A DNA stretch of 64,000 nt from a virus: IMG/VR virus record IMGVR_UViG_3300025712_000005, positions 1 to 64,000 of that record, one strand, 5' to 3'. Under the pieces are notes generated by a model. That model was not told where the DNA came from. It searched no databases and saw only the letters and a list, made by a program, of their open reading frames with translations. Positions within the stretch are counted from its first letter, which is position 1. Each line of letters starts with the position of its first letter. The position numbers and the translations under genes were made by a program. Shown here piece after piece: positions 31,016-60,355 of this stretch.

Positions 31016-31029
31016 CGTCAATTTCCTTT

Positions 31030-35441: not shown

Positions 35442-35456
35442 GGGGGCACATGCCCC
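35442..35456. repeat. GGGGGCACATGCCCC palindrome, copy 8
   Basis: Same sequence context as copies 7 and 9 (palindrome, TTTAAGGAAATTGACGATG), including the flanks. Confidence 0.7.
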
Positions 35457-36390: not shown

Positions 36391-36427
36391 CGTCAATTTC
36401 CTTGTAAATCATATAGTTACACTAAAT

Positions 36428-36827: not shown

Positions 36828-37198
36828 TAGTTAAGTTGGCCGTCTGTTTGCGACGTAGGGCGTTGGACTTCCAGTGGAATAAGGGCGTGAACATTCCAAA
36901 AGATTTCGTCCAATAAGGCGTATTTTGTGGCATCAAATAGCAACGGTCGGGCAGGGGCAACGATGGGAATGTCGACCAACGGCGATGAGGCTATTTTTCT
37001 GAATTTACTCTCGGGTTTGTCGATTACTCTATAACCACGTTGATAGAGGGCATCGCACAAATGAGGGTAAACAGCCAGTATGTTTCGAACGGTTTTGTAT
37101 TGCTCAGCTAAACCGCGAATTTGAATGGTTTGACCTTTGCAGGTCGCTAGATTAAAGCATTCTAGCTCGAATGCTCTTTCTTTAAAGTTGTATATCAT
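36827..37198 (-). CDS. hypothetical protein
   Basis: 123 residues from an exact start box. Contains IQIRGLAEQYKTVRNILAVYPHLCDALYQRGYRVIDKPES. No family recognised. Confidence 0.6.
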   Translation of the reverse strand: MIYNFKERAFELECFNLATCKGQTIQIRGLAEQYKTVRNILAVYPHLCDALYQRGYRVIDKPESKFRKIASSPLVDIPIVAPARPLLFDATKYALLDEIFWNVHALIPLEVQRPTSQTDGQLN

Positions 37199-37220
37199 CG
37201 TCAATTTCCAGTATGTAGTA

Positions 37221-43996: not shown

Positions 43997-44010
43997 CTTG
44001 GAAACTGACG

Positions 44011-45459
44011 ATGGCTGAGAATATCATTTCAAAATTTAAACTGTTATTGCCAACACGCACCAAACCCAAGGGCGTTACGCAAACAGGCAGTTATGACGCT
44101 GAGAACCGAACTGAGGTTCTAGGTACCCCAGACTATCGTGAGCACCTTCAAGATTTACAAACAGAACGCGCTGCCAAGAACTCTCAGGAGATAATTCAGC
44201 AGCTGCTTGAATCTGACCCTGATGCTTCCGCTGCGTTGAACGCTTTCTTGACCACCGCTGGAAGTTCGAAACCCTTAATCAAGATTACCGACCCTGATGG
44301 CGCCATCGATAGAGACGGCTATAAAATCTTAAATCAAATTGTGGAATTGCTCGAAACGCGACGCGATTACTCAAAAGGGTTCGTGCATAAGAAAACGCTG
44401 CGTGAACTTTGCGAAGAAATGCGCTACATGATTTTGGCACAAGGCGGTTGTGCCGCTGAAGCTATCTTCGGTGACTTCCTTGAATTAAGCGCGGTGAGGA
44501 TGGTTGAGCTATCGAGTTTGAGATGGCAAGAAAAAGAAGCCGGTACGTTGGTGCCTTATCAAGACCAAGGCGACGGCGACCCTGTTAAGATTGATGTCCC
44601 TACCTTATTCATTGGCTGGTTTAGAAAGCCGTCCAGAACGCCTTACGCTTCGTCTCCGTTTGTCTCTGCAATTAATACGATGGCAGCAAGACAGCAGGTA
44701 ATTAATGATCTATACCGCATATTGCAAATAACCGGTTTCCCGAGAATCACTCTTAAAGTTCTCGAGAGTGTGTTAGTTGAAAATGCGCCGATTGAAATTA
44801 AGAGTGACCCTGTGAAGCTTCGTGCTTATATCACCAACCAGCGTAACGCGATTGGTGCCCAGTTTGCTGCGATAAGACCAGACCAACCGATTGTGCATAC
44901 TGACTCGTTAGAAGTATCGATGCTCAATGAAAAGAATCCGGCCTCAGGCCTCGATGTCTCGAAGATTATTGAAACCCTAAACGCACAAAACCAAGCTGGG
45001 CTTAGAACCATGGCCACGGTATTGGGACGCGGTGAGAGTGGGGTTAACACCGCGACAGTTGAAGCTAACTTGTTCTCAAAGAACGCCGATAGTTTGAACG
45101 AGCCGATTGGTGATGTGTTAAGTAAAATTTTAACAATGGCGCTGAGATTACAAGGCAGTGAGAGCCGCGTTATTTTAACTTTCCCGAATATTGATTTACG
45201 CTCTGAGTTAGAACTTGAAGCGCAATTAAATTTAAAATCCCAGCGGCTCCGTACAGACCTCAGTGACGGTTTAATTAGTGATGACGACTATCACTTAGCA
45301 ATGTACCGAAGAATTCGACCAGATGCTTCTCCAGAGCTTTCAGGCACCGGTTTTGCAAATGCTAAGATGGAAGTTGACGCCGAGAAAGTTTCACCTAATT
45401 CTGACCCTCAAGGACGTTCCGTTTCCAGAGCCTCAGATAAGCAAGCTAAATCTAATTAA
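44011..45459 (+). CDS. portal protein
   Basis: 482 residues, directly after the terminase with a 14-base gap and start box GGAAACTGACGATG. It has the size and alpha/beta pattern of phage portals, with LGRGESGVNTATVEANLFSKN near 345, a region often conserved in portals. The protein forms the ring through which DNA enters the head. The Ser/Lys-rich C-terminus is probably disordered. Identification depends on order and general similarity. Confidence 0.8.
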   Translation: MAENIISKFKLLLPTRTKPKGVTQTGSYDAENRTEVLGTPDYREHLQDLQTERAAKNSQEIIQQLLESDPDASAALNAFLTTAGSSKPLIKITDPDGAIDRDGYKILNQIVELLETRRDYSKGFVHKKTLRELCEEMRYMILAQGGCAAEAIFGDFLELSAVRMVELSSLRWQEKEAGTLVPYQDQGDGDPVKIDVPTLFIGWFRKPSRTPYASSPFVSAINTMAARQQVINDLYRILQITGFPRITLKVLESVLVENAPIEIKSDPVKLRAYITNQRNAIGAQFAAIRPDQPIVHTDSLEVSMLNEKNPASGLDVSKIIETLNAQNQAGLRTMATVLGRGESGVNTATVEANLFSKNADSLNEPIGDVLSKILTMALRLQGSESRVILTFPNIDLRSELELEAQLNLKSQRLRTDLSDGLISDDDYHLAMYRRIRPDASPELSGTGFANAKMEVDAEKVSPNSDPQGRSVSRASDKQAKSN

Positions 45460-45541
45460 CTGAGATACTAGAAATTACTGGTTAGATAAAGTTATAGTAA
45501 TAAAGAAACTCGTTAAGAGTTAAAAAATTTGGAAAATGACG

Positions 45542-46717
45542 ATGGCTAAGAAACTTACACTCACAGAATCATTGCGTGCTGCAATTAGAAAAGCAGCGGG
45601 GGATGACGATATAGATTTTAATCTAATTTCTGCTTATGAAGCGGTAGCCGCGTCTACCCGTCCGATTTCTCAGTCAGCGACTGCCTACGATGGCGCTCAA
45701 ATGACCGAGACCTTTCTAAGAGATATGGAAACGTATCTCGAAACCGAATCAGTCCCTATTCATGTTATGCACAACGGCAGCGTACTTCCTATCGGAAAAA
45801 CGTTCAAAGCGGGTGTGCTTGATGCTGAAGCAGGGCATTACGATTTAAACGCATTATTTTATGTTGAGAGTGATAGCGAACATGCTCGTCAAATCGACTT
45901 AGGCATTATCGATGAAGTTTCAGTGGGTGCCTTACCTAAGCACGCTTATTGTTCTGAGTGTGATTTTGATTATATGGCTCCTGAGAACGAATACAGTTTT
46001 TACTACCGTGAGTGTGACAATGGTCATGCGTTAGGCCAGAACGGAGTGCACCTTCGTTTAACCGGTCTTGAAAAGTGGAAAGAACTTTCGCTTGTTGGAA
46101 AAGGGGCTTCCAACAAACCGAAAATACTTGGCACTGCCAAGCAACGATTGAGTAAAGAGTCTTATGAACAATTGGCCGCGTCGGGTATGTCTCCTGAAGC
46201 GGTTCAAATGTCTTATTTGCTTTGCTCTGCTACCCCCAAAACTAAAGATGAAGGTGTAATCATGGATTTAACAGCATTGAGCGATAAAGCCATTTCTTTG
46301 TCAGCAGAAAAAGCTAAATTGGAAAGTAAATTAGAGATTGTTGAGGCTAACTTAGCGACTTCTGATTCCAAGGTAGCGGAGCTGAATGGCAAAGTGACGG
46401 AGCTACAAACACAATTAGCAGCAACAGATGAGTCGGCTATTAAGCTTGAACTTACTGAAGCGAAAGCTAAGCAAGCGGAATTCGAACCAGTAACAGCGTA
46501 CTTAACTGAACAAGTTAAGATTGCGGCGGTTGCTGCCGGATTAGAACTGAAAGAAGATGCAACGATGCAAGAACAGATTGAAGTACTGAAAAGTGCTCAA
46601 ATCAAACTAGGTGCAATCCCTAGAAACGGTTCTGACATCTTAGCGTCTGGTGGCAAAGAACAGACGGCAGAGTTGTCGGCTACTATTCTTCGCAATTCAG
46701 CATTTTTAACGAAGTAA
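45542..46717 (+). CDS. capsid maturation protease with scaffold-like C-terminus
   Basis: 391 residues. The N-terminal half has a candidate His (IHVMHNGSVLPIG near 75) and Ser (IIDEVSVGALP near 125), then a zinc-like CSECDFDY...ECDNGH. The C-terminal 150 residues are coiled coil (SAEKAKLESKLEIVEANL; VAELNGKVTELQTQL), as in protease-scaffold fusions. ATG 45542 is the box start. An in-frame ATG at 46262 with GAAGGTG upstream could make a separate scaffold of 151 residues. The 82 bases before the gene hold only a weak AACTC/GAGTT hairpin. Confidence 0.75.
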   Translation: MAKKLTLTESLRAAIRKAAGDDDIDFNLISAYEAVAASTRPISQSATAYDGAQMTETFLRDMETYLETESVPIHVMHNGSVLPIGKTFKAGVLDAEAGHYDLNALFYVESDSEHARQIDLGIIDEVSVGALPKHAYCSECDFDYMAPENEYSFYYRECDNGHALGQNGVHLRLTGLEKWKELSLVGKGASNKPKILGTAKQRLSKESYEQLAASGMSPEAVQMSYLLCSATPKTKDEGVIMDLTALSDKAISLSAEKAKLESKLEIVEANLATSDSKVAELNGKVTELQTQLAATDESAIKLELTEAKAKQAEFEPVTAYLTEQVKIAAVAAGLELKEDATMQEQIEVLKSAQIKLGAIPRNGSDILASGGKEQTAELSATILRNSAFLTK

Positions 46718-46733
46718 GTAGGAGTACAATACT

Positions 46734-47129
46734 ATGTATTTTGGACAACTAACACATAAAGGTATTCGTACCGAATCCGCTGCCGCCACTTTCGAGTTAG
46801 ACGCGAGCATCGATGGGTACGATAAAGTCGGTCTCCCAGTTGCTATGAAAGGTAACTTTCTTGTCGGCTTGGCGGGTGATGGCGATGCGATTGTAGGTTA
46901 CCTAGAGTCGTATGAAGAGCGTAAAGCGGATGGCACTAAAACAGGTGCAGTTTCGTGGAATATCTGCGCGGAATGGACTTACACGGGCACAGCTCCAGTT
47001 GTTGGCGGCGGTGTAGTAGGTTCAGCGACAGAAGGTGCTGTTAAAGCGGCAGTCGCCCCAGCAGGTCTAAACGCGTTGGTAACAGCCGTTGACACCACAA
47101 ACAAAATAGTTTCAGTTATCCTTCGATAA
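46734..47129 (+). CDS. head decoration protein
   Basis: 131 residues located between protease/scaffold and major capsid, the standard place for a capsid cement protein. Glycine-rich and beta-like (VGLPVAMKGNFLVGLAGDGDAIVGYLESYEE). SD TAGGAG. Such proteins bind the mature capsid surface and stabilise it. Confidence 0.7.
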   Translation: MYFGQLTHKGIRTESAAATFELDASIDGYDKVGLPVAMKGNFLVGLAGDGDAIVGYLESYEERKADGTKTGAVSWNICAEWTYTGTAPVVGGGVVGSATEGAVKAAVAPAGLNALVTAVDTTNKIVSVILR

Positions 47130-47157
47130 TTGATAACTGAAAATTAGGAGATTGACG

Positions 47158-48363
47158 ATGAGTTTACAATCATTAACAACTATAAAACGCGCCCCTCTTG
47201 CTGTGATTCTTGGCGAGATAGGTTCTGAAAATAAACAAGCCTCTTCAAGTGCTGGTCTTAGCCTTGTCGACAAAGCCAAGTCGTATGGTATTTCTGTAAA
47301 GGACTACTTGGACTTAGCGGTAGATGTCCGCGCCTCTGAAGGCGAAGACAAAGGCAAGTATCTGAAGAACGCAAACGAGCGTATGTCTGGTTACGAGGCG
47401 GCACTAGCTGACTTGAATCTACCAGTACAGAACAACTTCAAGCAAGGCATTGTGCTTCAAGCAGCTGCGGATAGCTTCAGTGCTCGCCCAGGCTCTCGCG
47501 CACTTTTCCCTGAAGTCATTGACTCAATGATGCAGTGGTCTACGAAGCAAGACCAGTTCGAATCAACTGAAGGTTTAGTGTCTCAAACCCGTACGGTTAC
47601 TGGTAACGAAGTTATCACTCAGGCGATTTTTGATGACCAAGGTCAGTTGAATACGAGCCCGATTGCTGAGTTAGCGAACATTCCAGTTCAGACTATCACT
47701 AGTTCTGATCGTAGTGTGAAGTTCTTCAAGCACGGTTCAGCGATTCGTACCTCGTATGAATTTGAACGTCGTGTTTCTTTGGACGTACTGACTCCGTATG
47801 CTAACCGTGTTGCTCGCAACCTAGAGTTAAGCAAAGTGGCTCAAGCGACTCGTCTTCTTATCGAAGGTGATGGTGTTCATTCTGCAGCAACTCCGTTCGC
47901 AGCAAGTGCGCTGAAGAATTGGGACATCACTGGTTCTAAGTCACTTAAAGACAACTATGTTGGTCTTGCTGACTTCCTAGCGCGTCGTGCTAAAGCGGGT
48001 AACCCAGTAGATACCATCATCGGTAACTACGACATGTGGTTAGAGTTGTTCTTAATGTTCTTACCGACTAAGACAACTAACTCTGATGCTGCAGAGCTTC
48101 AGGGCCGTGGTATGCCACGTGTTGGCCTACAGTTAGACTTCTTGCAAGGTGTTAACTTCAAGATTTCAAGCTCAATGCCAGCGGGTCAGCTAATGTGTTA
48201 CAGCGTTGGCGATACTTTGGAAGAGTTGATCGAAAACGGTTCTGTTCTGTCTGAGTCTGAGACAGCTATCAAGAATCAGTCAATCACGTATATCAAAACA
48301 ATGAACATGGGTTACCGTTTAGTTTACGGCGACACTCGTACTTTGTTAGACCTTACGGCGTAA
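47158..48363 (+). CDS. major capsid protein (HK97 fold)
   Basis: 401 residues. Order, length and features such as FKHGSAIRTSYEFERRVSLDVL (spine-like) and the N-terminal 100-residue charged part (likely delta domain, removed by the protease) fit an HK97-fold capsid. Start box GGAGATTGACGATG; codon choice appears more uniform than in neighbours, as for highly expressed genes. Followed at once by a GC hairpin. Confidence 0.85.
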   Translation: MSLQSLTTIKRAPLAVILGEIGSENKQASSSAGLSLVDKAKSYGISVKDYLDLAVDVRASEGEDKGKYLKNANERMSGYEAALADLNLPVQNNFKQGIVLQAAADSFSARPGSRALFPEVIDSMMQWSTKQDQFESTEGLVSQTRTVTGNEVITQAIFDDQGQLNTSPIAELANIPVQTITSSDRSVKFFKHGSAIRTSYEFERRVSLDVLTPYANRVARNLELSKVAQATRLLIEGDGVHSAATPFAASALKNWDITGSKSLKDNYVGLADFLARRAKAGNPVDTIIGNYDMWLELFLMFLPTKTTNSDAAELQGRGMPRVGLQLDFLQGVNFKISSSMPAGQLMCYSVGDTLEELIENGSVLSESETAIKNQSITYIKTMNMGYRLVYGDTRTLLDLTA

Positions 48364-48369
48364 TTGATT

Positions 48370-48388
48370 GGGGGCTTCTGCCCCCTTT
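48370..48388 (+). terminator. GC hairpin after the major capsid gene
   Basis: Stem GGGGGC-TTCT-GCCCCC followed by TTT. The U-run is short, so it may be a weak terminator or an mRNA-stabilising end. The arms resemble the leftward palindromes but the loop differs. Confidence 0.5.
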
Positions 48389-48406
48389 AAACTTTGGGAA
48401 AAGAAA

Positions 48407-48766
48407 ATGTCAAAAATACTAGTAAAAGTAAAAGGCAAATTTACTTGCCTTGTAGAGAACGACTTTGTACCGGCTTTTCGTCCAGCGGTAGTTGCCGACT
48501 GTAACAAGTACAAGCAACTTGTAGATGAAGGTAAGTTAAAGCCTTTAGCAGAGTTGAAAGACGAAGCCACTGACCAAGATTTTGTCGACTTCATTGCCAG
48601 CCATGACGGTGACGTTGAAACGGCGACTGAAAACTTCTTAGCGAAGTTTGGTATCGACGCAAGCGATGACCCTGAAGCGGATGCGATGGCGAAAGATATT
48701 GCCGACGCTGAAGCCAAAGCGGAAGCTGAAAAAGCACTGGCTAAAAAGCCCGTGGCTAAAAAGTAA
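48407..48766 (+). CDS. small acidic protein after capsid gene
   Basis: 119 residues from ATG 48407 (GGGAAAAG upstream). The first half looks folded; the second is Ala/Glu/Lys-rich and helical, ending KKPVAKK. Probably a head or connector accessory protein by position; family unknown. Confidence 0.65.
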   Translation: MSKILVKVKGKFTCLVENDFVPAFRPAVVADCNKYKQLVDEGKLKPLAELKDEATDQDFVDFIASHDGDVETATENFLAKFGIDASDDPEADAMAKDIADAEAKAEAEKALAKKPVAKK

Positions 48767-48783
48767 TTTAAAGGACAACAGCA

Positions 48784-49476
48784 ATGATAAATTTAAAAGA
48801 AGGTGCCGAGCTTGAGCTAAAAGACTTTGAAATTCAGGGTCGATTTCTCACGCCAGATGCTAGTAACGTTGCTGTTGTCGTTTACAATGACCAAGGTGTG
48901 GAGGCGTACTCAAAAGTATTTTCCTTTGATCCCGCTTATTATTATGTCATGGCCGGAGAGCTTCTGTTCGCATCCCTTGATGCAGCTTATGAGTTCTTTA
49001 CGATTAAAGTTACGTTTCAATCCAATGGTAAGTCTCACACGTTTAAAGACATTATTCGATTGCAACGAGACCCTATGATTTACACCGATGAGAATTCGGT
49101 GCGGACTATTCTAGGCGCTTCTGAAAAAGAGTTGCCAAATGAAGAAATCGATATTTATGGCGCTTACGCTGAGTTATCAGTTGATTTGGGAATTTCGTTT
49201 ATTTCGAATAATTCGAATATTAAGAATGCGAATGATCTCATCACCTACCACGAAGCCCTAAAGCAATTAGACAGCCTAGAATTGAAGTTACTGAAAAGTG
49301 ATGAATTCGATGATATCCGTCAAGCTAGATTAGCAAAATTTGATTATGTGGGCATGAAAGCGAGATTGACGAATGTGTATATCCGCTTGCTGAATAATTT
49401 CACCGAAGAGTTTGTCGTTGGCGACAGTCCACTTCTAACGGTTGTCACAAGAACCGACCCCTTTCTAGGTAGCTAA
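48784..49476 (+). CDS. head-tail connector/adaptor candidate
   Basis: 230 residues. The N-terminal half is beta-rich (AVVVYNDQGVEAYSKVFSF). The C-terminal half is helical and begins YTDENSVRTILGASEKELPNEEIDIYGAYAELS, resembling helical adaptor proteins that dock on portals. SD AAAGGACAACAGC. Confidence 0.6.
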   Translation: MINLKEGAELELKDFEIQGRFLTPDASNVAVVVYNDQGVEAYSKVFSFDPAYYYVMAGELLFASLDAAYEFFTIKVTFQSNGKSHTFKDIIRLQRDPMIYTDENSVRTILGASEKELPNEEIDIYGAYAELSVDLGISFISNNSNIKNANDLITYHEALKQLDSLELKLLKSDEFDDIRQARLAKFDYVGMKARLTNVYIRLLNNFTEEFVVGDSPLLTVVTRTDPFLGS

Positions 49477-49477
49477 T

Positions 49478-49966
49478 ATGAGAACCTTATCGAATTATCG
49501 GGTAGGTAATCTCAAGGTTAGAGCCGCTGTCACAAAACCAAATGAAAACACGCTGACGATGATGCCCGTGCGTTCGTTGGTTTATGTCCCTAAAAAGTAC
49601 CCTGTTGAAGCCGGAGAAATATTAAGTTTCGATGGCAAAGATGATGATTTGCTTTTGGCCACCCACCATGAGAATCCAGAGTATTGGGTATTTATGGGTC
49701 TTCATATGAATGCCACCGTAACGATTGAAAAACGTTTTTCAGGCATTAACCCTGTGACCAAAATGAAGCAAGGCTCTTTCACGGTTGAGCCGATTACCTG
49801 CCGAGCGGTGCATGAACTTGGAAAGCTAATTGATGACAGAGGACTACAGACTTCAAGGGATGTTTATTATGTCGCTGAGCAAGTTAAAGAGGGTGATGTG
49901 ATTGACGGTCAGTCTATTACTGGTGTGCAAAAGCTGAACGGTATTTATTATATCGAGGTAAAGTAG
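49478..49966 (+). CDS. neck / head-completion candidate
   Basis: 162 residues, beta-rich. Located between adaptor and tail-terminator candidates, where a stopper protein is expected. One base separates it from the previous gene's stop. No motif clinches it. Confidence 0.55.
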   Translation: MRTLSNYRVGNLKVRAAVTKPNENTLTMMPVRSLVYVPKKYPVEAGEILSFDGKDDDLLLATHHENPEYWVFMGLHMNATVTIEKRFSGINPVTKMKQGSFTVEPITCRAVHELGKLIDDRGLQTSRDVYYVAEQVKEGDVIDGQSITGVQKLNGIYYIEVK

Positions 49967-50904
49967 TGGCCAAGCAGCGGAACGATATTTTCAGAGACCT
50001 TCAAACTCGAATTCAGGCCGTTTTATTAGGGCTTGAACAAGGCACGCAAGACCAGATAAGAGGTAAGTTGGAAGTCGCAACCATCGAATTCTTAGATGGT
50101 ATTTTTAACCAAATGATTAAGATCATAACAGCGGTTAAAATTGACAGTTCCGCCTATAACTTTGAAGGCAATGTCTTTGGGTTTAAGCGAACAAAACCAC
50201 TCACTAAAAAATGGATTAACGCTAAGACAGGGGGATTGACCGCAAAGGAAGGCGCAAGAAATCCAATGCTTTGGCGGATACCCGCTCAGAACAAAAAACG
50301 TTTTAGGCAGAAGCATAGAGACCCCTTAGAAGAAATTTTGCGAGACCTGACAACGAAAAAAGTCGGTAAGCAGTTGTATGATAAATTCGGCGGGATTAGT
50401 GGGGGAGCAACGTCGGGAAAGTCCACGTTTAGAGAGAACCGTCGCCGAGGGATGAATGGTAGACCCTATAACACGGTAACCAAGAAGTACGAAAGCTGGG
50501 CAACGGCAGTTCGACCTGAAGTGGTAAACGCGGTTAAGAATGCAGATATTCAGTTACTAACCGGCGCGACGAGAACCGCCAGCGGAAGAATAACTATCCC
50601 AAAAAGTGGAAGAGGCCGAAGCGTGTCTATCTACAGTGCAATACAATTAGGATACGCGGCGACCAAAAATAAATTAATTTTTTTGGATAGATTAAACTCT
50701 ATTCAAGGCCCAAGTTCTACGACAGATGAGATAGCCCTCATGCTAAAGAATATGGGTGAAATGGATGGCACGAACTTTAAGAAGTTCGACGGATTGCACA
50801 AGCAAGGCCATCCAGTGATTACCGCTATGATGGGGATGCTGCTTTCTAAAGGATTTAGAGGCGGGGATAATAACCTTCACGAATATTTGGATAAGGTAGT
50901 TTAA
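49966..50904 (+). CDS. tail-completion candidate (GTG start)
   Basis: 312 residues, strongly basic (KRTKPLTKKWINAKTGG; RRRGMNGRPY). GTG 49966 overlaps the preceding TAG stop (TAGTG). Position suggests a neck or tail-completion protein, but it is longer than usual. Not recognised. Confidence 0.55.
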   Translation: MAKQRNDIFRDLQTRIQAVLLGLEQGTQDQIRGKLEVATIEFLDGIFNQMIKIITAVKIDSSAYNFEGNVFGFKRTKPLTKKWINAKTGGLTAKEGARNPMLWRIPAQNKKRFRQKHRDPLEEILRDLTTKKVGKQLYDKFGGISGGATSGKSTFRENRRRGMNGRPYNTVTKKYESWATAVRPEVVNAVKNADIQLLTGATRTASGRITIPKSGRGRSVSIYSAIQLGYAATKNKLIFLDRLNSIQGPSSTTDEIALMLKNMGEMDGTNFKKFDGLHKQGHPVITAMMGMLLSKGFRGGDNNLHEYLDKVV

Positions 50905-51347
50905 TGGCAACTTACAAGAACGTGCATACCTCGCTACTTAGATATTGCAGCGACAAGGCAGTCAACTTCAACATGCTAAAAGGGACTAACCTCGAAGCGT
51001 TGAACTTAGATGCTATTTCAGATGAATCGCAATTGCCTAGCGTCAATGTAATTGGCATTGAGAAGATGACTTATCAGAGTGAAGGTGATTCTCAAGGACT
51101 GGACAACTTTACGGTGTCGATCACAATCGGGACAGTTCAGGATGAGAACAACATGCTGCTCGTTGACTTAATCGATTCTCTCTTTGAAGAATTACGTTCG
51201 AGTAAGACGGTCGGTATTTTTGATGCGACAAGTGGATTGTTAATTGCCAAGGCGGTTGTCTATGGTCAAACGTTTATTACCCCAGTAATGATGGGAGAAA
51301 ACGACCGTGTGTTTCAATCTATCGTAATTAGTGCCTCAGTGACTTAG
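50904..51347 (+). CDS. tail terminator candidate
   Basis: 147 residues, alpha/beta, directly before the tail tube gene and overlapping the previous gene (TAATG). Size and order fit lambda gpU-like terminators, which cap the tail tube. Its stop codon lies in a perfect 11-bp palindrome shared with the convergent gene. Confidence 0.6.
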   Translation: MATYKNVHTSLLRYCSDKAVNFNMLKGTNLEALNLDAISDESQLPSVNVIGIEKMTYQSEGDSQGLDNFTVSITIGTVQDENNMLLVDLIDSLFEELRSSKTVGIFDATSGLLIAKAVVYGQTFITPVMMGENDRVFQSIVISASVT

Positions 51348-51364
51348 AGATTTTCTAAGTCACT
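51338..51364. terminator. 11-bp palindrome spanning two convergent stops
   Basis: AGTGACTTAGA-GATTT-TCTAAGTCACT is perfectly paired and includes the stop codons of the tail terminator (plus) and the RHH gene (minus). No U-run, so termination would be non-canonical; it could also protect mRNA 3' ends or serve as a binding site. Confidence 0.55.
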
Positions 51365-51664
51365 AAGGGCCGTGCAGATAGCTATTTGCAAGGCTTGTTG
51401 TCTAGTATATAAAGTTTGTTTGCAATAAGTGTCTAAGCTTTCCAACTCGCTACCGAGAAGGCGTAAGGTGAAGTTATGGTCATTCTTGAGATGTTCGTAA
51501 TTTGACATGTCAATGGGTGACAATTTATTCTCGAAGAAGTGGTTTAACAGTAACCGAATTTTTGAAGCCGTAGTGCTTTTATTAAACGGTGCGTTGGTTG
51601 CCATTTCAACAAGTCCTGACGGGATATTAAAAGCAACTGGAATTAATGTTTGTTCTGCATTCAT
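51344..51664 (-). CDS. tandem ribbon-helix-helix regulator, antisense in the late operon
   Basis: 106 residues. NFTLRLLGSELESLDTYCKQTLYTRQQALQIAICTAL near 68-105 is a good ribbon-helix-helix (Arc/CopG/MetJ) pattern: a beta strand then two helices. The N-terminal half (TLIPVAFNIPSGLVEMATN...TTASKIRLLLNHFF) looks like a second, weaker unit. AGGAG precedes the ATG at long spacing. It is transcribed against the structural genes, like a late-operon moron, and may regulate expression near its own locus. Confidence 0.65.
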   Translation of the reverse strand: MNAEQTLIPVAFNIPSGLVEMATNAPFNKSTTASKIRLLLNHFFENKLSPIDMSNYEHLKNDHNFTLRLLGSELESLDTYCKQTLYTRQQALQIAICTALSDLENL

Positions 51665-51719
51665 GATTTTTGTTTCTCCTTTCAGGTATTGAGTATAACC
51701 TAAAATTTGGAGATTGACG

Positions 51720-52553
51720 ATGGCTGGTGAAGCACGTTCAAATAAATTCATGTTGGGAACCGCTACCGTAATGATCGGTAATACCAACGAACTATACGAC
51801 CTTAACCCAGACGAACACAGCGTTGGTCTCGTTAAGAATTTCACATGTGAAGCGACGAAAGACCGTACTGACTTAACACAAGGCCGTACTAACGACATCG
51901 TTTTCACATTAACAACTAGCTCAACAACCCGAGCAACGTTCGAGATGTACGAGTATTCAGTGACTAACATTGCTTATGCTCTAGGTCTTGAAGGCGGCGC
52001 TATTACTGAGTTGACCGGTGATGCATTAGTTACTGATGGAGCCGTAACCTTTGCTTCTGGCACCGCTGATTTAACTTTCGTAGACGCAGCGGGTGTTCAA
52101 GATATCTTAGTTGGTCAAGATGTTTCTTTACGTACAGGCGACGGTGAAAACGTTATCCTTGCTAAAGTAACAGCTGTATCAGGTATCACTGGCGGTTCTG
52201 CTACTTCGGCAACGATGACGGTTATGATCCCCGATTCTGTTTCAGTGGCGGCTATTTCTGCAGGTACCCTTGTTTCAGGTGTAACGGTTCTTGAAGTTGG
52301 TTCTACTGACGTTGACCGTGACTTCTCGGCCAAGGTTACTGGCCAGTTGGCAAATGGTACTTACGTTACTTACTTGTTCCCGAAAATCCGTATCACGTCT
52401 GGTCTATCTATGGCGTTTACTACGGATAACTTCGGCAACATTCCTTTTGAGTTTACCCCTATGAAGGTAACTCCTCAGGATGACAACTACATACCATTTA
52501 AAGGATTGTCTGGTAAGTTAGTGATGGATACGGTTCAGGCACCATTGGCTTAA
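51720..52553 (+). CDS. major tail (tube) protein
   Basis: 277 residues, rich in Thr, Gly, Val. The N-terminus (FMLGTATVMIGNTNELYDL) and the C-terminal beta pattern fit siphophage tail tubes. A central segment near 95-195 (LTGDALVTDGAVTF...) looks like an inserted Ig-like or decorating domain. Start box GGAGATTGACGATG. A strong terminator follows, as is usual after the tube gene. Confidence 0.8.
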   Translation: MAGEARSNKFMLGTATVMIGNTNELYDLNPDEHSVGLVKNFTCEATKDRTDLTQGRTNDIVFTLTTSSTTRATFEMYEYSVTNIAYALGLEGGAITELTGDALVTDGAVTFASGTADLTFVDAAGVQDILVGQDVSLRTGDGENVILAKVTAVSGITGGSATSATMTVMIPDSVSVAAISAGTLVSGVTVLEVGSTDVDRDFSAKVTGQLANGTYVTYLFPKIRITSGLSMAFTTDNFGNIPFEFTPMKVTPQDDNYIPFKGLSGKLVMDTVQAPLA

Positions 52554-52574
52554 TAAGCTTTCTAACGTATTATT

Positions 52575-52602
52575 AAAAGCCTCCCAATTGGGAGGCTTTT
52601 TT
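52575..52602 (+). terminator. intrinsic terminator after tail tube gene
   Basis: An 11-bp stem AAAAGCCTCCC-AATT-GGGAGGCTTTT followed by further T residues. It should reduce read-through so that tube protein exceeds downstream tail proteins. Confidence 0.9.
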
Positions 52603-52627
52603 ATTTAAACAATTAGGAAATTGACGA

Positions 52628-53295
52628 ATGTTAGAACCAACGAAAGTTGAACCCCGCCACACTACCATTTTGAATGGTCAGGAACGTACGGTATTCATGA
52701 GCTTTGGCTTAATCAATACGCTTACAAATATGTTTGAGAACGTTGAGCAAATACCCGAGTTATTTACTAATCCGATGCTACGTGGAGTAATATTGGTTGA
52801 AGCCTTTTCGGAGCGAGATGAGCACGGCAAAATCACAAAGGAGTTGAACATTCAAACCCTTGAGATTGAAGACGATGCCTTTATCGAGTTTGTTGAATGG
52901 GTGGAGGTGCATGTCACCAATTTTTTTATAAAGACGTCGAACTCCAACAAAAAGAGACAGCTAAGGCTCACGCAAGCATTGAAGAAAGCGAACTCCTAAG
53001 ATCATTCAATGGATGGTACATGGGGCTCGACTTAGAAGAGCAACTATGTCTTGCCTTTCAATGCGTACCAAGTCAACTCAGCTCAATTTATTGGCGTAAC
53101 ACGTATCGTGATATTCAGACTCAACTCAAACTTGTAGTAGGTTTGAAGACAGTTGAACTCACACAAAACTACGAAAATTTATTGAAGGTCGCTGGAGCTG
53201 TCATGGGTGGCGGTGAAGAGAAGCCACATACCAACGCACCAGAACCAAAGAATGACGCTGAAGCGATGGCCTTAGCAAACGCTGTATTCAGCTAA
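52628..53295 (+). CDS. tail assembly chaperones, G and G-T frameshift pair
   Basis: Two overlapping frames in the place of lambda G/T. The first (52628-52999) gives 123 residues. The second is open to 53295 in the -1 frame with no good start. A run of seven T at 52921-52927, read T-TTT-TTT in the first frame, is a slippery heptamer. A -1 shift there gives a 222-residue fusion continuing YKDVELQQKE. These chaperones hold the tape measure during tail assembly. Start box GGAAATTGACGAATG. Confidence 0.85.
52921..52927 (+). other. -1 frameshift slippery site TTTTTTT
   Basis: In-frame reading is AAT-TTT-TTT-ATA; slipping back one base yields TTT-TTT-TAT. No strong stem-loop is obvious just downstream by eye. 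Confidence 0.7.
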
Positions 53296-53314
53296 ACAAC
53301 TTGGAGATTGACGA

Positions 53315-56300
53315 ATGTCTGTGAACAAAATCCGCCAAACGGTATTGGATATTAATTTATCCTCTGCAGCAAAAAAGAGAATGGACGAAGTTCTTCAAAA
53401 AGCGCAAGCGATTGAGGAAGCTCTTAAAGCGTCTGAACAGGCATTCAATAAATTAGCTAAAGGCAAGTTTACTAGCCCCGCTGCTCGAAATAAATATATT
53501 GAAGAGCAGTCAGGTGGAGCAAAAACAGATCTTACCCAGAGCCGTAAAATAATAGAGCAAAACAGGTCTAACCTAAAAACGTTGCTTGGGGTTGCTTCCC
53601 GAGAAATGTCTCAAGGATTACCTCAGGCTCAGAAAGCATTAATCTCCAGCGCGTTTAATACCATACTCTCTGAATTGAATGGTACGTTTAAAGACACCGC
53701 TAAGAAGGTTCGTCAAAAGACCTCAGACTTCATTGATAACGAGTTCAAAAGAAAAGTTGGCTCTCAACGAGTTGATGTGCGCTCTAATGCCAATCCTAAG
53801 CCACTCTCAGGCAAAAATCTTGAGCAATCAATCCAATCCCTAAGCTTAACCGTTAAGGGCGCTCAGAAGGCGTTAAACACCGGTCTTACTAAGAAAGACG
53901 AAAGCCTGATCAAAAGTGCGACGACGACCCTTGAAAAGAACCAAGGCGTATTGAATCGTTTTCAAAATGAGTTGCGTGACCGTAAGCTTTACGAAAGACA
54001 GTTAAGAAGTTCTGGGGTTAAGAGCGCCGAGTTGGAAAACTTCAACAAAAAAGCGTTCAAAAGAAATCCGTCAGTCACCCGTCAGGAAGAAATCAAAGAT
54101 AAAAAAATAAAGACGCTGACACTTCAAGGGCTGCAAGAACAGCAAGCGAGTCGTCGCACGCTATTGTCTGGGGCTCAGTCGGCGAATAAGTTTGCGGACA
54201 AAAATAATAATCGAGACCTTTACGATAAATCGGCCTTAGCGATAAAGCAGCACCAGACGGCGCTGGAGAAACTAAGCGCAGAGACGAAGCTTAGAACCAG
54301 TATCGAGAAGACCAACAACCAAGCTAGGATAAAGCAGCGCAGCGTTGAGGCTTTCTATGACAAGCGTTATGGCGATAAGCCAGAAGTAAAACGCAAAGAG
54401 GCGATTGCTGAAGCGAAAATTCGAGACTTAAAAAATAAAGAGCTTCAGGATGGTTTGCAAAATGCTAACCTGAGAAAAGGCGCGTCCTACGAAGCATTGA
54501 ACTTTGCTCGAAAGAATGGTGACAGCCGTTTAGAAGCTGATGCTCGAAAAGCGATTACGGAAAACACGGCGCAGCTCAAAGCATTAACCGATGAAAATAA
54601 ACGCCGCACGCAGACCACCGCGCAGAATAACCGAGCCAAAGTAAAGAACGGCAACTTTGATGAGTTCGTAAACAGGCAGTTTAAGTTAAATCCAGCGGTT
54701 CAACGTTTTGACCCGATTAAACAATCCAAGCTCGGGGGTCTTACTGACTCTCAACTCAAAGACCAAATCGCAAGTCAAAAGCTTTTGGTGGCTGGGGCTA
54801 ACAAGGCTAATTCTTTTGCTATCGACAATAAACGTAGTGAAGCTGAACAGAAAAGAGCTAGTGCCGCCTTAGCTGATTTTACCCGTGCGCTAAAAGCCGC
54901 TCAGCAAGAAATGAGTGACCGCAGTACCACGCGAAATAAGAAAGCGCCGATTACAGATGCCCAACGCCGAAGTAACGCTATCGAGAGTGATAAGCAAAGG
55001 ACAGTGAATCGAAACTTTGACGGCGGGGCGGGGCTGTTTAAACAGCAAGCCGCCTTGCTTAGAAACTATGCGGTCATGGGTGCGGGTGTTGGCGCGGTTA
55101 CCTCAGCAGCGACCTTCAGCAATGATTTAGATAAACAGTTCAAGCAGCTACAAAGTATCGTCGCATTGACGAACACTGAGATGAATGAGCTGAAGACAAA
55201 TCTTATCGACGTGTCTGAAGAAACTAAATTTACTGCGCTCGAAGTTGCTGACGCTGCGGTTATTTTGGGACAAGCTGGTTTCGGGTCTAAAGAGATTCAG
55301 GATTCAATACAAGGCGTAACCTTATTCGCAACAGCGGTTGGCTCTGACCTAAAAAGTGCGGTTGACCTAGCAACGTCAACGCTCGGGGTATTTAAGAAAG
55401 ACGCCTCGGAAATGACTGACATCACCGACAAGATGACCACTGCTGTCAACAGCTCAAAGCTGAACTTGGATAAACTAAGCTTAGGCCTCCAGTACTCAGG
55501 TAACTTGGCTGCACAATCTAACGTTCGATTTGAAGAAGTTGTGGCCGCACTTGGCGCCATGGCCAACGCCGGTATTCGTTCAGGCTCAACCTTGGGTACC
55601 GGTCTTCGTCAGATAATCATTGCCCTGCGTAAACCGTCAGAACAATTTGTTAGTATTGTTCGAGGCCTTGGTATCGGGATGGATGATTTAGATATCTCTA
55701 CCCGAGGACTAATCCCCGTATTAAAAACGCTGGCTAATGCTGGCTTTACCTCTCGGGATGCAATCGAATCAATGCAGGTTCGAGCGGCGTCTGCTTTCCA
55801 AGCGTTCGTAGGTAATATTAAAGTTGCTGATGAGCTGCAAACTAAGATGGAACTTGGGGGGTCAGCGGCAAGAGCTAACGGGGTTCAAATGGGTGCCCTT
55901 GCGAACCAACTAGCAAGGCTTGGCTCCGTGGCCAACTCAATCGCCTTTGAAGCGTTTGAACCTATGCTGAAGGTGTTTGCAAAACTAGTTGAAGTGACTG
56001 CAGACGCATTGACAGGTATACGTAATATGGGGCCAGCGTTACAAGGTCTGGGGACGGCTGTCATTACTTTTTTAGGGATTAAAGGGATTGCCAGCGTCAT
56101 TCGTTTACTCGGGTTCTTGGTTGGCGGAGGTGGGGCTTTACGTGCTGCTGCAGGTTTCTTTAAAGGTGCTGGGACAGTTGCCGCTGGAGGAACTGCCGTA
56201 GCAGCGAGAGGAGGGGCGGCAGTAGCCTCGACTACAGCTATTTCTTCAATAATGGCGGTAGTTTTTAGAATACTTGGATTGGCAAGCCCAATTGGTTGGG

Positions 56301-59272
56301 CAGCTACAGCACTTTCGGTTGCGGGGGGTGTGGCAGCATATTCTTCGTCAAAACGTGGCCCAAAAGAGAATAACCTAGATGTTTCTACAGCGGGATATAA
56401 TAAGGCTGAGTCTGAAGTTGAGTCCTATAATAAGCGTGTGGATAAACTTAGCAACTCCATCTCGGAATTGATTTTCAAACAAGATAGACTTTCTGATCCT
56501 AAAGAGCTGCGTCAAACCATTCAGAACTTAAACTCTGACTTTAAGCAGCAGGGGTTGTTCATTGGTAAAAACGTTAAGAGCTACGACGAACTTATTGCAA
56601 AGATGATTGAGTTTGAAGAACAAACAAAGGACGCTCGTTTTTTCTTAGAAAGTGAAAGTCGCTCTAAGTTGCAAGAAAATATTAAGGATATGAAAGAGGA
56701 TATACTTGCAAATCCTGAATTGAGGGATTCAAGTAGTCGTATTCTAAACAACACATCCAATGAAAATTTAGGGTTTAACGATATTAGACAAATGCCTCGC
56801 GTTGAAAGATTTCTAACCCAAGAGAGCAGAAATAAAGGAAGCTCTTTTGAAGGATTTAATGCGAAACGTGACGAAGCCTTAACGCTGGTAAGAAATTTTG
56901 AAAGTGGTAGTGATACCAGTCTTGAGGGGCTTAGGAGTGCGCTAGAACTAGTAAAAGAAATGCAAGCTCAGTTTGTTAATTTTAAAGAGAATAACGTTTC
57001 TGACTACGAAGACACGATTACAAAATACTTTGGTCTCAACAAAGAGGGGCGTGCGTTTGGTATAAAAACGATTGCCGAGGTGGAAAAAGGCTTATCGGAC
57101 TTTGCTCAAAAAGTAAATGCACTAACGATTGCTGAGTCTAGCTTTCAAGAAAACTCTGAAGAAAATAGAACGAAAAGAGACCAGATAACAGGGCTGGTAA
57201 CTGATGCTGGGAGAGCTATTGCGAGTGAAGGGAATGCGTTCCGTGTGGGGAGTAAAGATATAAGCGACCGATTAGTTACCCCTAAAGGTGAAAAGTCTAC
57301 ACTTACGGGCACGGATTATATTCAAGCGTATGAAGACACTAAGAAACTGTATGAGCAAGAGGTTATTAATCTCGAAGAAAACAGAGCACTAATAAAAGAG
57401 GTACTTCTTGCCAGCGGAATTGATAAAACTCAGCTTGAGGCTACCCTAAACAAAGAGGGTTATTACGAGGAGTATGGAACCTCAATATCCAACGCCAAGC
57501 GCACTGTTAAATCAGCTGCTCAGTTAGCCGCTGGCCCTTTTGCACAACAAACGGCAGACCAGAGAGCTTCTATCCAAGCAACGATTGAAGAGTTAACACC
57601 GTTGTTTAGTAACGAGCAAAATTTAGAAAGGTCGGAAGCATTAGAAGCTAAGTTGAATACCCTTTACGCTTCTTTAGAAACATTGACCACCAACGAGGTT
57701 AAGTTTAATAAAGACCTTAACGGGGGTGACGATGCCACCATCCGCCAGAGAGAAATCACTGAGCTGCAGGTCAATGAATCACGACGTGCTAAATTAGCAG
57801 AAAGTCAGGACAGAACCTTCAACCTAATCGAAGTGAGTAAATCCCTTCGTGCGGGTCAGGGTATTCCTGATGGTGAAACTAAGCTGACGGACAGAGACTT
57901 GAAAAAGTTGCTGGGCGATTTCATCACTGAAGCTAATTCCAAAATAGACCAGCAAGAAACGATTGGTAAGCGTGGCGTCGAATCTATTGGTCGTGATATC
58001 GATGAGACCAAGTACCAGTTTGACCAAAGCACCGAGATTGCTAAAGCGGGTTCAGGCTATGAATATGAAACTCGGGTAGCTGCGTTTGAAAAAGCACAAC
58101 AACTTCAACAGACAATCGCTCAACTAACTGAAGAGCAGCTGGCCGCTGAACGACAAATCTTGCTAGACAAAATTGATAGTCTGAATGAGCTAAAAGCTCA
58201 AGCCGATAAAATCCTTACTGACGAGAACGTTGTTGATGGGGAGGCTAAGAATAAGTTACGTAAAGCCTCACAGGACGCAGCTGAAAAGGTGAGTGAAGTT
58301 AGTCTTGAGATGGATAAGCTGGAAACTAAATCACGGGATGCTGGGCGTGGTGTTGGTGAATTAAAAGATAGTCTTAAGCTACTAGAACAGCAGCTGGTTG
58401 AGTCTAACTTCAACAGTACGCGTGAGCAGCAGGTAGGCGCTCGTCTATATGGTAAGGGATACAACCCCACAGACAATGCCACTGAGGACACGACTAATTT
58501 AAGTCGGAGCGGCATGGGGTACGGTGAAATTGCAGAAAACGGGGCAAACTCTGTACTTGGAGACCTGCAAGCGTACTACACTGGTTTTGATCCTCTGGTT
58601 GACTCTGTAATGAACTTAACCGAGATGGGTAAGGGATTGGGGGAGACCTTCTCAGATACCTTTGTATCTATTGTTACGGGCGCAGAGAGTGGCCATAGAG
58701 CAATTAAGAATCTGATGGCTGGGTTATTAACGGAAGTTCTCAGAATAGCGGCGAATGCAGCCTTTAAAAAAGCAATCCAGTTGTTGGTTAACTTGGGAAT
58801 GACTTTACTAGGGGGCACGGGCGATACGGTTGGGGATGGGGCGTCTACCATGAACTTTGGGTCGGACATGACAGCCTATACCGGAGGGGAGATGATTGCT
58901 GGGTCTTACTATAAGGGTGGAGAGATAACTTCAGGGTCAACGTCTCGGGATTCTACCTATGCCAAAGTAGCTAAAGGCGAATTTGTTATGCGCCGTCGTG
59001 CTGTACAAGCCTTAGGCTTAGATACAGTGAGAGCATTGAACTCAGCTGACCCCTCATCGATTCAATCGAGTGAAGCTAAGCTGGCCAGTGTCGGCATGGA
59101 TACTAAGCCGTCATCCGGTCAAGATAAAACGGTCAACGTCTGGGTTGTAACCCCTGACCAAAAACCAGAAGGGTTAACCGAGAACGACATAGTTACGGTT
59201 GTCAGCGACAATATAAATAGAAACGGCACCATCAAAAAGCTGGTTCGTTCCATTAGCATGAATAGGATTTAA
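53315..59272 (+). CDS. tape measure protein
   Basis: 1985 residues. By the rule of thumb of about 0.15 nm per residue it predicts a tail near 300 nm. Residues about 145-547 hold four divergent repeats of about 100 residues (for example NFNKKAFKRNPSV..., VEAFYDKRYGDKP..., NFDEFVNRQFKLNP...). Residues about 580-830 match the TP901-type tape-measure core (LDKQFKQLQSIVALT...RAASAFQAFVGN). Residues about 905-1010 are hydrophobic, likely membrane-active. The C-terminus is coiled coil then Gly-rich. Start box GGAGATTGACGAATG. Confidence 0.95.
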   Translation: MSVNKIRQTVLDINLSSAAKKRMDEVLQKAQAIEEALKASEQAFNKLAKGKFTSPAARNKYIEEQSGGAKTDLTQSRKIIEQNRSNLKTLLGVASREMSQGLPQAQKALISSAFNTILSELNGTFKDTAKKVRQKTSDFIDNEFKRKVGSQRVDVRSNANPKPLSGKNLEQSIQSLSLTVKGAQKALNTGLTKKDESLIKSATTTLEKNQGVLNRFQNELRDRKLYERQLRSSGVKSAELENFNKKAFKRNPSVTRQEEIKDKKIKTLTLQGLQEQQASRRTLLSGAQSANKFADKNNNRDLYDKSALAIKQHQTALEKLSAETKLRTSIEKTNNQARIKQRSVEAFYDKRYGDKPEVKRKEAIAEAKIRDLKNKELQDGLQNANLRKGASYEALNFARKNGDSRLEADARKAITENTAQLKALTDENKRRTQTTAQNNRAKVKNGNFDEFVNRQFKLNPAVQRFDPIKQSKLGGLTDSQLKDQIASQKLLVAGANKANSFAIDNKRSEAEQKRASAALADFTRALKAAQQEMSDRSTTRNKKAPITDAQRRSNAIESDKQRTVNRNFDGGAGLFKQQAALLRNYAVMGAGVGAVTSAATFSNDLDKQFKQLQSIVALTNTEMNELKTNLIDVSEETKFTALEVADAAVILGQAGFGSKEIQDSIQGVTLFATAVGSDLKSAVDLATSTLGVFKKDASEMTDITDKMTTAVNSSKLNLDKLSLGLQYSGNLAAQSNVRFEEVVAALGAMANAGIRSGSTLGTGLRQIIIALRKPSEQFVSIVRGLGIGMDDLDISTRGLIPVLKTLANAGFTSRDAIESMQVRAASAFQAFVGNIKVADELQTKMELGGSAARANGVQMGALANQLARLGSVANSIAFEAFEPMLKVFAKLVEVTADALTGIRNMGPALQGLGTAVITFLGIKGIASVIRLLGFLVGGGGALRAAAGFFKGAGTVAAGGTAVAARGGAAVASTTAISSIMAVVFRILGLASPIGWAATALSVAGGVAAYSSSKRGPKENNLDVSTAGYNKAESEVESYNKRVDKLSNSISELIFKQDRLSDPKELRQTIQNLNSDFKQQGLFIGKNVKSYDELIAKMIEFEEQTKDARFFLESESRSKLQENIKDMKEDILANPELRDSSSRILNNTSNENLGFNDIRQMPRVERFLTQESRNKGSSFEGFNAKRDEALTLVRNFESGSDTSLEGLRSALELVKEMQAQFVNFKENNVSDYEDTITKYFGLNKEGRAFGIKTIAEVEKGLSDFAQKVNALTIAESSFQENSEENRTKRDQITGLVTDAGRAIASEGNAFRVGSKDISDRLVTPKGEKSTLTGTDYIQAYEDTKKLYEQEVINLEENRALIKEVLLASGIDKTQLEATLNKEGYYEEYGTSISNAKRTVKSAAQLAAGPFAQQTADQRASIQATIEELTPLFSNEQNLERSEALEAKLNTLYASLETLTTNEVKFNKDLNGGDDATIRQREITELQVNESRRAKLAESQDRTFNLIEVSKSLRAGQGIPDGETKLTDRDLKKLLGDFITEANSKIDQQETIGKRGVESIGRDIDETKYQFDQSTEIAKAGSGYEYETRVAAFEKAQQLQQTIAQLTEEQLAAERQILLDKIDSLNELKAQADKILTDENVVDGEAKNKLRKASQDAAEKVSEVSLEMDKLETKSRDAGRGVGELKDSLKLLEQQLVESNFNSTREQQVGARLYGKGYNPTDNATEDTTNLSRSGMGYGEIAENGANSVLGDLQAYYTGFDPLVDSVMNLTEMGKGLGETFSDTFVSIVTGAESGHRAIKNLMAGLLTEVLRIAANAAFKKAIQLLVNLGMTLLGGTGDTVGDGASTMNFGSDMTAYTGGEMIAGSYYKGGEITSGSTSRDSTYAKVAKGEFVMRRRAVQALGLDTVRALNSADPSSIQSSEAKLASVGMDTKPSSGQDKTVNVWVVTPDQKPEGLTENDIVTVVSDNINRNGTIKKLVRSISMNRI

Positions 59273-59273: not shown

Positions 59274-59663
59274 ATGGCACTTAAAGTATTTAATTTCCCT
59301 TATCATAAGGCGGCGACTCGTTACCCAGACAGAGGAAATAAAATGACCCTCGGGGGAAACTGGGACTACACAATTAAACCAAATACCCCTGCAGCAAGAA
59401 CGTTTCAACTTTCTTTCTCAGCGATGAAATACTTTGATCCGTTTGCCGTGCTGAGTCTGCGAGAGCAACAAATCAGCATGGCTGCTCTCGAAGCGTTCTA
59501 CGAAGAGCATGAAACCCACACTGCTTTTGTCTATCCACATCCACAACACGGGGATGTGGTGGTTAAATTCAGTGCCCCTTTAGAAATTCCAACCGGAGTT
59601 ACTGGAGGAGATGGGGCGGTTTTAAACATCTCAACGAGTTTAAAAGAACAAAAAGTAACCTAA
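59274..59663 (+). CDS. minor tail protein, gpM-like
   Basis: 129 residues directly after the tape measure. ARTFQLSFSAMKYFDPFAVLSLREQQISMAALEAFYEEHE and the terminal beta strands fit lambda gpM-like distal tail proteins. It begins one base after the tape-measure stop. Confidence 0.7.
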   Translation: MALKVFNFPYHKAATRYPDRGNKMTLGGNWDYTIKPNTPAARTFQLSFSAMKYFDPFAVLSLREQQISMAALEAFYEEHETHTAFVYPHPQHGDVVVKFSAPLEIPTGVTGGDGAVLNISTSLKEQKVT

Positions 59664-59687: not shown

Positions 59688-59715
59688 TTGACGAAAATAA
59701 AAAAGTCGTTAATAT
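59688..59715 (+). promoter_or_regulatory. sigma70-like promoter of the antisense RNA
   Basis: -35 TTGACG (59688-59693), 16-base spacer, -10 TAATAT (59710-59715). Predicted start at about 59722-59724. The -35 also resembles the core of the start box (ATTGACGA), so part of the match could be coincidental. Confidence 0.5.
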
Positions 59716-59722
59716 AGACCTC

Positions 59723-59797
59723 GATTAGTAAGTTTACTTACTCAATCATCGTCAATTTCCACGTCAACCCCGCCTTAGCTGCGGGGTTCTTTATTTC
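59723..59797 (+). ncRNA. candidate antisense small RNA complementary to the start box
   Basis: About 75 nt between promoter and terminator in a 200-base gap of the tail operon. The 5' part folds as GATT-AGTAAG / CTTACT-(C)-AATC (59723-59747). An unpaired seed follows: CATCGTCAATTTCC (59747-59760) is the exact reverse complement of the start box found at 17 early genes. It ends with a GC-rich terminator hairpin and U-rich tail, the shape bound by ProQ/FinO proteins. On the minus strand the box would open only MIE-stop, so there is no gene to explain it. The rest of the gap holds an AT-rich run and the next gene's leader. Confidence 0.55.
59766..59797 (+). terminator. intrinsic terminator of the antisense RNA
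   Basis: Stem AACCCCGC / GCGGGGTT (59766-59773, 59781-59788) with a 7-base loop, then CTTTATTT. The U-rich tail is only on the plus strand. Confidence 0.75.
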
Positions 59798-59866
59798 TGG
59801 CTTCGGAATATCTTCAATTTCTTTGATTTTTACGTATACTAGATACTTAAAACTTGGAAACTGACG

Positions 59867-60355
59867 ATGAAAAATCCTTCCCCTCTCTTAAAACGTGAGG
59901 TTCAATCTTTGAACCCGCACGAACCAATCACCTTTATTGAAATTGTGATGGAAGACGCTCAGGGTAATCCTTTTGCTTTTCGATTAACCGATGCTGGTAC
60001 CCGAATTTGGCGAGGGAATACATGGAGCAATACCCCGTTTCAGATTGTTGGCAACACCTATAGTTCAGATGGTGAATTGAGTCGTCCAAAATTAAACCTT
60101 CCAAATATGGACGGGCAGTATTCTTTTTACGTTGACAAGGGTTTCTTAGAAAGAGCTATTGTCACACGATTTAGAGTCTCCCCGTTAGAATTAGAGGTTG
60201 GTAGCTTTGACAAACAAGTCTTTTTTATTAGTCAAGTGGTGTCTCTAACGAGGGATATTCTAACCGTTGAGCTGCGTAAAAGTTCAGACGGGAACGCATT
60301 TAGATTGTCCGGCACTCGCTATGAACAGCCCGAATATGGAACGGTGGTTCTATGA
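59867..60355 (+). CDS. minor tail protein, gpL-like
   Basis: 162 residues. Resembles lambda gpL-type proteins by position (after M, before the K-type peptidases) and beta-rich sequence (ELSRPKLNLPNMDGQYSFYV). Unlike lambda gpL it has no evident Cys cluster. Start box GGAAACTGACGATG. Confidence 0.65.
   Translation: MKNPSPLLKREVQSLNPHEPITFIEIVMEDAQGNPFAFRLTDAGTRIWRGNTWSNTPFQIVGNTYSSDGELSRPKLNLPNMDGQYSFYVDKGFLERAIVTRFRVSPLELEVGSFDKQVFFISQVVSLTRDILTVELRKSSDGNAFRLSGTRYEQPEYGTVVL

Follow-up and report, generated by a model that had tools for sequence, protein, structure and literature searches.

A predicted small RNA in a phage tail operon with a seed antisense to a translation-start box shared by many genes of the same phage

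The window is a stretch of 64,000 nucleotides, positions 1 to 64,000 of the 83,050-bp virus record IMGVR_UViG_3300025712_000005 (G000; WIN in the comparisons below). Two of its plus-strand tail genes, one M-like (129 aa, 59274-59663) and one L-like (162 aa, 59867-60355), flank a gap of 203 bp that houses a predicted small-RNA unit. The unit begins with a sigma-70-like promoter at 59688-59715 (+), composed of TTGACG (59688-59693), a 16-nt spacer and TAATAT (59710-59715). A promoter scan gave three matches with 2.2 expected, so that the match by itself is ordinary for such a scan; a similar pair is syntenic in five other phage lineages. The predicted small RNA (75 nt, 59722-59796, +) consists of a 5' hairpin of 25 nt (59723-59747), the seed CATCGTCAATTTCC (59747-59760) and an intrinsic terminator (59766-59796), in which a GC-rich hairpin (stem 59766-59788) is followed by CTTTATTT, with the U-rich tail extending to 59796. 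The seed is the exact antisense of a start box, GGAAATTGACGATG, and the tail L gene itself starts with a copy of this box that carries one mismatch (GGAAACTGACGATG, 59856-59869, +).

The region 59719-59800 folds at -21.2 kcal/mol compared with -10.75 kcal/mol for shuffled sequences (z -4.3), and none of 200 shuffles is as good. The mean unpaired probability of the seed in the predicted fold is 0.83, and the terminator stem shows both-sided changes at five of 11 pairs across lineages. A covariance model matches the predicted RNA with 65 bits, a score to be read with the window sequence itself included in the model. No Rfam family matches the window at the gathering score, the unit region had no DNA-level match among isolate phages, and a scan for the exact seed together with the start of the terminator found a near-identical contig as its sole match. 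We also observed CGTATACTAG at 59833-59842, between the terminator and the tail L start, and CGGTATACTAG at the syntenic position in the G010 group; both probably represent a second promoter, from which transcription of the tail operon would resume past the terminator of the unit.

The start box GGAAATTGACGATG occurs 18 times without mismatch in the 83-kb record, 17 times on the minus strand and once as the antisense copy that forms the seed. At all 17 minus-strand sites, the ATG opens an ORF and the box spans the Shine-Dalgarno (SD) sequence, the spacer and the ATG. These boxes are located at 613-626 (ORF reaching the record edge), 1075-1088 (Holliday junction resolvase, 637-1077), 5797-5810 (5215-5799, pyrophosphohydrolase-like), 14563-14576 (13882-14565), 16023-16036 (15654-16025), 16280-16293 (16088-16282), 17140-17153 (16894-17142), 17722-17735 (17539-17724), 26051-26064 (25562-26053), 26952-26965 (26622-26954), 28600-28613 (27931-28602, anti-restriction-like), 31013-31026 (29618-31015), 34958-34971 (34697-34960), 35423-35436 (34991-35425), 35897-35910 (35456-35899), 36388-36401 (36229-36390) and 37196-37209 (36827-37198). 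When up to three mismatches are allowed, the window holds 53 sites where 6.8 are expected, and no shuffle reaches that number.

Variant boxes are found at about 30 more starts, including those of late structural genes. On the minus strand, near boxes precede the replication/origin-binding protein 1651-5157 (GGAAAATGACGATG, 5155-5168), the DNA polymerase 6801-9668 (TTTGGAGTTGACGATG, 9666-9679), the exonuclease 9707-10525 (GGAAATTGACTATG, 10523-10536) and the helicase 12070-13536 (GGGAATTGACGATG, 13534-13547). On the plus strand, they belong to the portal 44011-45459 (GGAAACTGACGATG, 44000-44013), the gene 45542-46717 in a scaffold-like position (GGAAAATGACGATG, 45531-45544), the major head protein 47158-48363 (GGAGATTGACGATG, 47147-47160), the tail tube-like gene 51720-52553 (GGAGATTGACGATG, 51709-51722) and the tape measure protein 53315-59272 (GGAGATTGACGAAT(G), 53303-53316). 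The boxed genes of the record further include an excisionase. In total, 48 ORF starts of the record are predicted to form a duplex with the seed at -15 kcal/mol or better, a count that varies with the threshold chosen and takes in some weak and some overlapping ORFs, since the ORF calls are mechanical.

An earlier note, made from the letters alone, had described a promoter, 5' hairpin, seed and U-tailed terminator, and all are present within 59688-59796; its exact antisense match and its 17 ORF starts were likewise recovered. Folding, which the note had suggested as a check, returned the hairpin, an open seed and the terminator. Its term "early-gene start box" was only half right: early genes are boxed, but the regulon is not confined to them because portal, capsid, tail and excisionase genes carry the box too. 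The note had also held that no gene on the opposite strand accounts for the antisense copy. We agree and reject such a gene, since the opposite strand reads only M-I-E-stop in WIN and lacks any ATG there in the G003 and G010 groups. The match is also longer than composition would give: the run of box complement in the gap measures 14 nt, whereas the longest in 5000 shuffles of the gap is 11 nt.

Separately, a palindrome, GGGGCATGTGCCCC/GGGGGCATGTGCCCCC, lies a few nucleotides upstream of about ten start boxes, at minus-strand window positions 26078, 27918, 31038, 31571, 33307, 34985, 35450 and 35924, with further sites at window position 37228 and record position 80605. Given its location, the palindrome would place a GC hairpin directly before the box in the mRNA, and this hairpin might insulate starts or serve as a marker of 5' ends.

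We compared six lineages: WIN, G010 (with G011 to G014; G010 is IMGVR_UViG_2895548450_000001), G003 (with G004), G021, G005 and the Pseudoalteromonas phage KB12-38, which is the nearest isolated relative by tail region and terminase. The other four came from scans of IMG/VR with terminase, tail L and ProQ. All six have a promoter-like pair, a hairpin, a seed and a terminator at the syntenic position in the M-L gap, and in each unit-bearing genome the covariance model picks out a single clear unit. The seed has a mean unpaired probability of 0.71-0.92 in the predicted fold of five lineages; that of KB12-38 is half buried (0.39).

Each lineage has a seed that complements the box of its own phage, with cores GGAAATTGACGAT, GGAAATCGACGAT, GGAATTGACGAT, GGATTGACGAT and GGATTGACAAT. 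The G010-G014 group and further contigs have T boxes only and the seed TATCGTCAATTTCC. G003 and G004 have boxes of the form GGAAAT[C/T]GACGAT and the seed TATCGTCGATTTCC, in which a G can pair with either the C or the U of the boxes. The box of G005 is GGATTGACGATATG and its seed CATATCGTCAATCC. KB12-38 uses GGATTGAC, a few bases and then ATG, and has CATATTGTCAATCC as the seed in its M-L gap, with the predicted RNA on the minus strand at about 13809-13900 of its record; few of its boxes match the seed beyond GGATTGAC. For G021 the box GGAATTGACGATG was read first and the seed ATCGTCAATTCC deduced from the boxes, and the M-L gap showed exactly ATCGTCAATTCC, the prediction having been written down in the same step as the gap reading.

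Exact cores are most numerous where each lineage's seed predicts. Counted in WIN, G010, G003, G021, G005 and KB12-38, respectively, core GGAAATTGACGAT occurs 17, 22, 14, 2, 1 and 0 times, GGAAATCGACGAT 0, 0, 7, 0, 0 and 0 times, GGAATTGACGAT 4, 1, 1, 14, 0 and 0 times, GGATTGACGAT 1, 1, 0, 3, 16 and 3 times, and GGATTGACAAT 0, 0, 0, 0, 0 and 4 times. Six unit-less relatives have no exact core at all except a single GGATTGACAAT. The difference between G010 and G003 can be followed gene by gene: at seven orthologous starts (portal, scaffold-like, capsid, tape measure, tail L, replication protein and Holliday junction resolvase) the box has ...TTGACG in G010 and ...TCGACG in G003, the corresponding seeds having CGTCAA and CGTCGA. 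The tail tube start has T in both, which is tolerated in G003 because of a G-U pair with the seed.

Counts of predicted duplexes show the seeds of G021, G005 and KB12-38 to be best or joint best on the starts of their own phage, and those of WIN, G010 and G003 to be nearly interchangeable. When seeds were permuted among the lineages, two of 720 assignments matched the performance of the true one, a test that cannot separate WIN from G010 because their cores are identical and that is further weakened by the G-U pairing of the G003 seed with T-type boxes. We therefore give more weight to the exact cores and the orthologous starts. Among G010-G014 the seed is identical at 14 of 14 positions, against an identity of about 89-95% over the remainder of the gap; between the G010 group and G003 the seed agrees at 13 of 14 positions and the rest of the gap at about 70%. 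Seed and boxes thus co-evolve, and like a lock and key they seem to have been re-keyed together at least three times. The earlier note had proposed that related phages be searched for compensatory seed and box changes, and these are clearly found across the six lineages; the opposite case that it named, boxes kept with the seed lost or drifting, was not seen, and the one seed change between G010 and G003 is matched in the boxes.

Boxes without a unit were not seen in any related phage whose M-L gap was covered, and the covariance model has no clear match in box-less relatives; weak matches with E above 0.03 (L084, L076 and others) were not counted as units. Several relatives considered as carriers were rejected, having neither box nor unit: the GC-rich phages Achromobacter 2-1, JWF and Lumi, the branch of G006, G008 and G009, and TCUP2199. 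A scan of the genome collection added only a single distant box-less relative. In a tree of terminases, a single branch (support 92/91) separates the unit-bearing phages from the others, with one change in 94% of bootstraps.

The unit-bearing phages have a further gene in common. In the window, 1101-1589 (-) encodes a ProQ/FinO-family RNA chaperone of 162 aa (PF04352, E 1.3e-12), which is a candidate partner protein. PF04352 is matched in WIN, G003, G005, KB12-38 and G010-G014; G021, which was itself found through ProQ, has a homologue by alignment. ProQ is present in every searched unit-bearing record of 66 kb or more and absent from ten long records of box-less relatives and one short contig of that branch. 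The 65-kb record G004 bears the unit without a ProQ match, and so do some short contigs; since its near relative G003 is longer, the ProQ region may simply be missing from an incomplete G004 record. To judge by the terminase tree, ProQ, box and unit probably mark one clade with a single origin, so that their co-occurrence may reflect shared descent. As a side observation, the first codons of the window's ProQ gene, ATG ACG GAA ATT GAC GAG, hold a one-mismatch box within the coding sequence (GGAAATTGACGAGG, 1571-1584, -), possibly a feedback on ProQ or else chance.

A tyrosine integrase is encoded in nine of ten searched unit-bearing records, the exception being the 65-kb partial record G004. 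In G010 the box cores end at 80,113, just before integrase genes at 80.9, 82.4 and 89.8 kb, which fits a prophage with a host flank; the region 80.1-90.8 kb has the look of an integrated prophage joined to host DNA. No repressor of the CI type (Peptidase_S24) was found in any unit-bearing record searched. HTH_3 proteins, which are candidate conventional repressors, occur in most unit-bearing records searched; the window has two matches on the minus strand, at 13667-13828 and 14616-14747.

On the strength of these comparisons, we consider it very likely that the unit specifies a trans-acting phage RNA of about 75 nt that pairs with start boxes and represses much of the genome at the level of translation. 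Transcribed from its own promoter, the unit would yield a free small RNA acting on the phage's own mRNAs. The start box, comprising the SD sequence, spacer and often the AUG, would be the standard translation-start module of the phage. Pairing of the unpaired seed with this module should keep the 30S subunit off the start, since the duplex would cover the elements to which it binds, and with many boxed starts paired, expression would fall across much of the genome at once. The terminator hairpin is the probable binding site of the phage ProQ/FinO protein, which would stabilize the RNA or aid pairing.

As to the role of the RNA, we place prophage silencing with superinfection immunity first, at a little below an even chance, because replication, structural and excision genes are all targeted, because nine of ten records carry an integrase and because the promoter is of the host type. 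More tentatively, the RNA could be the counterpart of a phage repressor: a ProQ-aided small RNA may silence the prophage and incoming relatives, with seed and box diversifying jointly into mutually incompatible types that would make related phages RNA-defined immunity groups. Lytic shut-off, slightly less likely than silencing, keeps the same RNA and the same pairing and assigns them to timing or dosage control, the RNA rising with genome copies and damping translation of early and structural genes late in infection. The position of the unit within the late tail operon suits this role, and there is a precedent in RegA of phage T4, a protein that competes with ribosomes at the start region of about 30 phage mRNAs and represses them at the AUG (PMC3014915). 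On the other hand, portal, capsid, tube and tape measure genes, which are needed late, and the excisionase gene are boxed as well, and a host-type promoter means that the RNA could also be made in a lysogen.

Pairing might instead protect or activate the mRNAs, by shielding them from an endonuclease or opening structure, as some small RNAs are indeed activators. We regard this as improbable: a duplex over the SD sequence, spacer and often the AUG should block 30S binding, and known activator small RNAs usually pair upstream.

Still less likely is a cis attenuator in which the antisense stretch controls only the adjacent tail L gene, whose box lies about 100 nt downstream. The L start is boxed in all six lineages, as such an attenuator would have it, but all six seeds pair better with the perfect complement than with the L start, the difference being clearest in three of them (KB12-38, -26.4 compared with -14.0; G021, -24.4 and -16.0; WIN, -26.6 and -18.9). 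Moreover, the seed co-varies with dozens of distant starts and tracks the genome-wide consensus, and the terminator stands between the seed and the L start. We give equally little credence to the box being a protein- or DNA-binding site or a favoured ribosome site with the antisense copy as an inverted site of no RNA function; the box does contain TTGAC, which is also a -35-like hexamer, but the antisense copy is in all cases preceded by a promoter-like sequence and a 5' hairpin and followed by a terminator, its opposite strand offers no start codon in the G003 and G010 groups, and no boxed relative whose gap was covered lacked the unit. That the RNA is in truth aimed at host mRNAs, with the phage boxes as a sponge, is hardly credible either: our target search covered phage starts, but host starts would not shift with the seed of each phage, and it is the phage that holds the perfectly matched set, which moves with the seed.

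The preferred reading, a trans-acting repressor RNA, invites comparison with several known systems. Like RegA, the unit would provide a phage-encoded global repressor acting at many phage starts. However, what co-varies with the box here is an RNA seed and not a protein, and RegA operators are loosely defined and AU-rich, whereas a near-identical box stands at each start in these phages. In bacteria, RsaE and the pneumococcal csRNAs each use one seed to recognize the SD/AUG regions of several mRNAs. Their regulons are composed of host genes with imperfect, unrelated sites; the phage system differs in exact complementarity of up to 14 nt or more, a standard start module and co-evolution of the two. 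The C4 RNA of P1 and the CI RNA of P4 are phage immunity factors with one or very few targets. Other phage antisense RNAs, namely P22 sar, lambda OOP and aQ, and 24B_1 of an Stx phage, have one or a few targets, mostly in cis, and sar blocks translation initiation of one mRNA, as given in the part of the source available to us (PMC12197685). All of these share with the predicted RNA the base-pairing of a phage RNA with phage transcripts; as far as the accessible text describes them, they differ in that the start box here is common to dozens of genes.

In the plasmid systems FinO/FinP and FopA, a protein with a FinO domain is coupled to its own antisense RNA, which ends in a terminator hairpin (PMC9977716, in part general knowledge). 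Similarly, the phages encode on one element a FinO/ProQ-domain protein and a predicted antisense RNA with a terminator hairpin; the plasmid RNAs have a single target, whereas many are predicted for the phage RNA. A full-text search of the open literature, its scope excluding subscription papers, found no phage RNA directed against a shared start sequence, in agreement with the earlier note, whose author knew of no phage RNA with such a genome-wide target. Base-pairing small RNAs are a known kind, but we have not seen the organization suggested by these genomes, one RNA for a shared start box, described.

This group of phages seems to have standardized its translation starts around one regulatory RNA. 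The re-keying of seed and box amounts to natural compensatory-mutation experiments on a small-RNA regulon, and the system may control lysogeny or immunity at the RNA level, suggests what phage-encoded ProQ proteins might do, and comes as a ready toolkit of orthogonal small RNAs and start boxes. Since the isolated phage KB12-38 carries the unit, the system is testable at once. KB12-38 also contains, at 46448-55293 (L012 6448-15293), genes for PAPS reductases, methyltransferases and a DndB-like protein; several of these genes are boxed, and the set suggests DNA modification.
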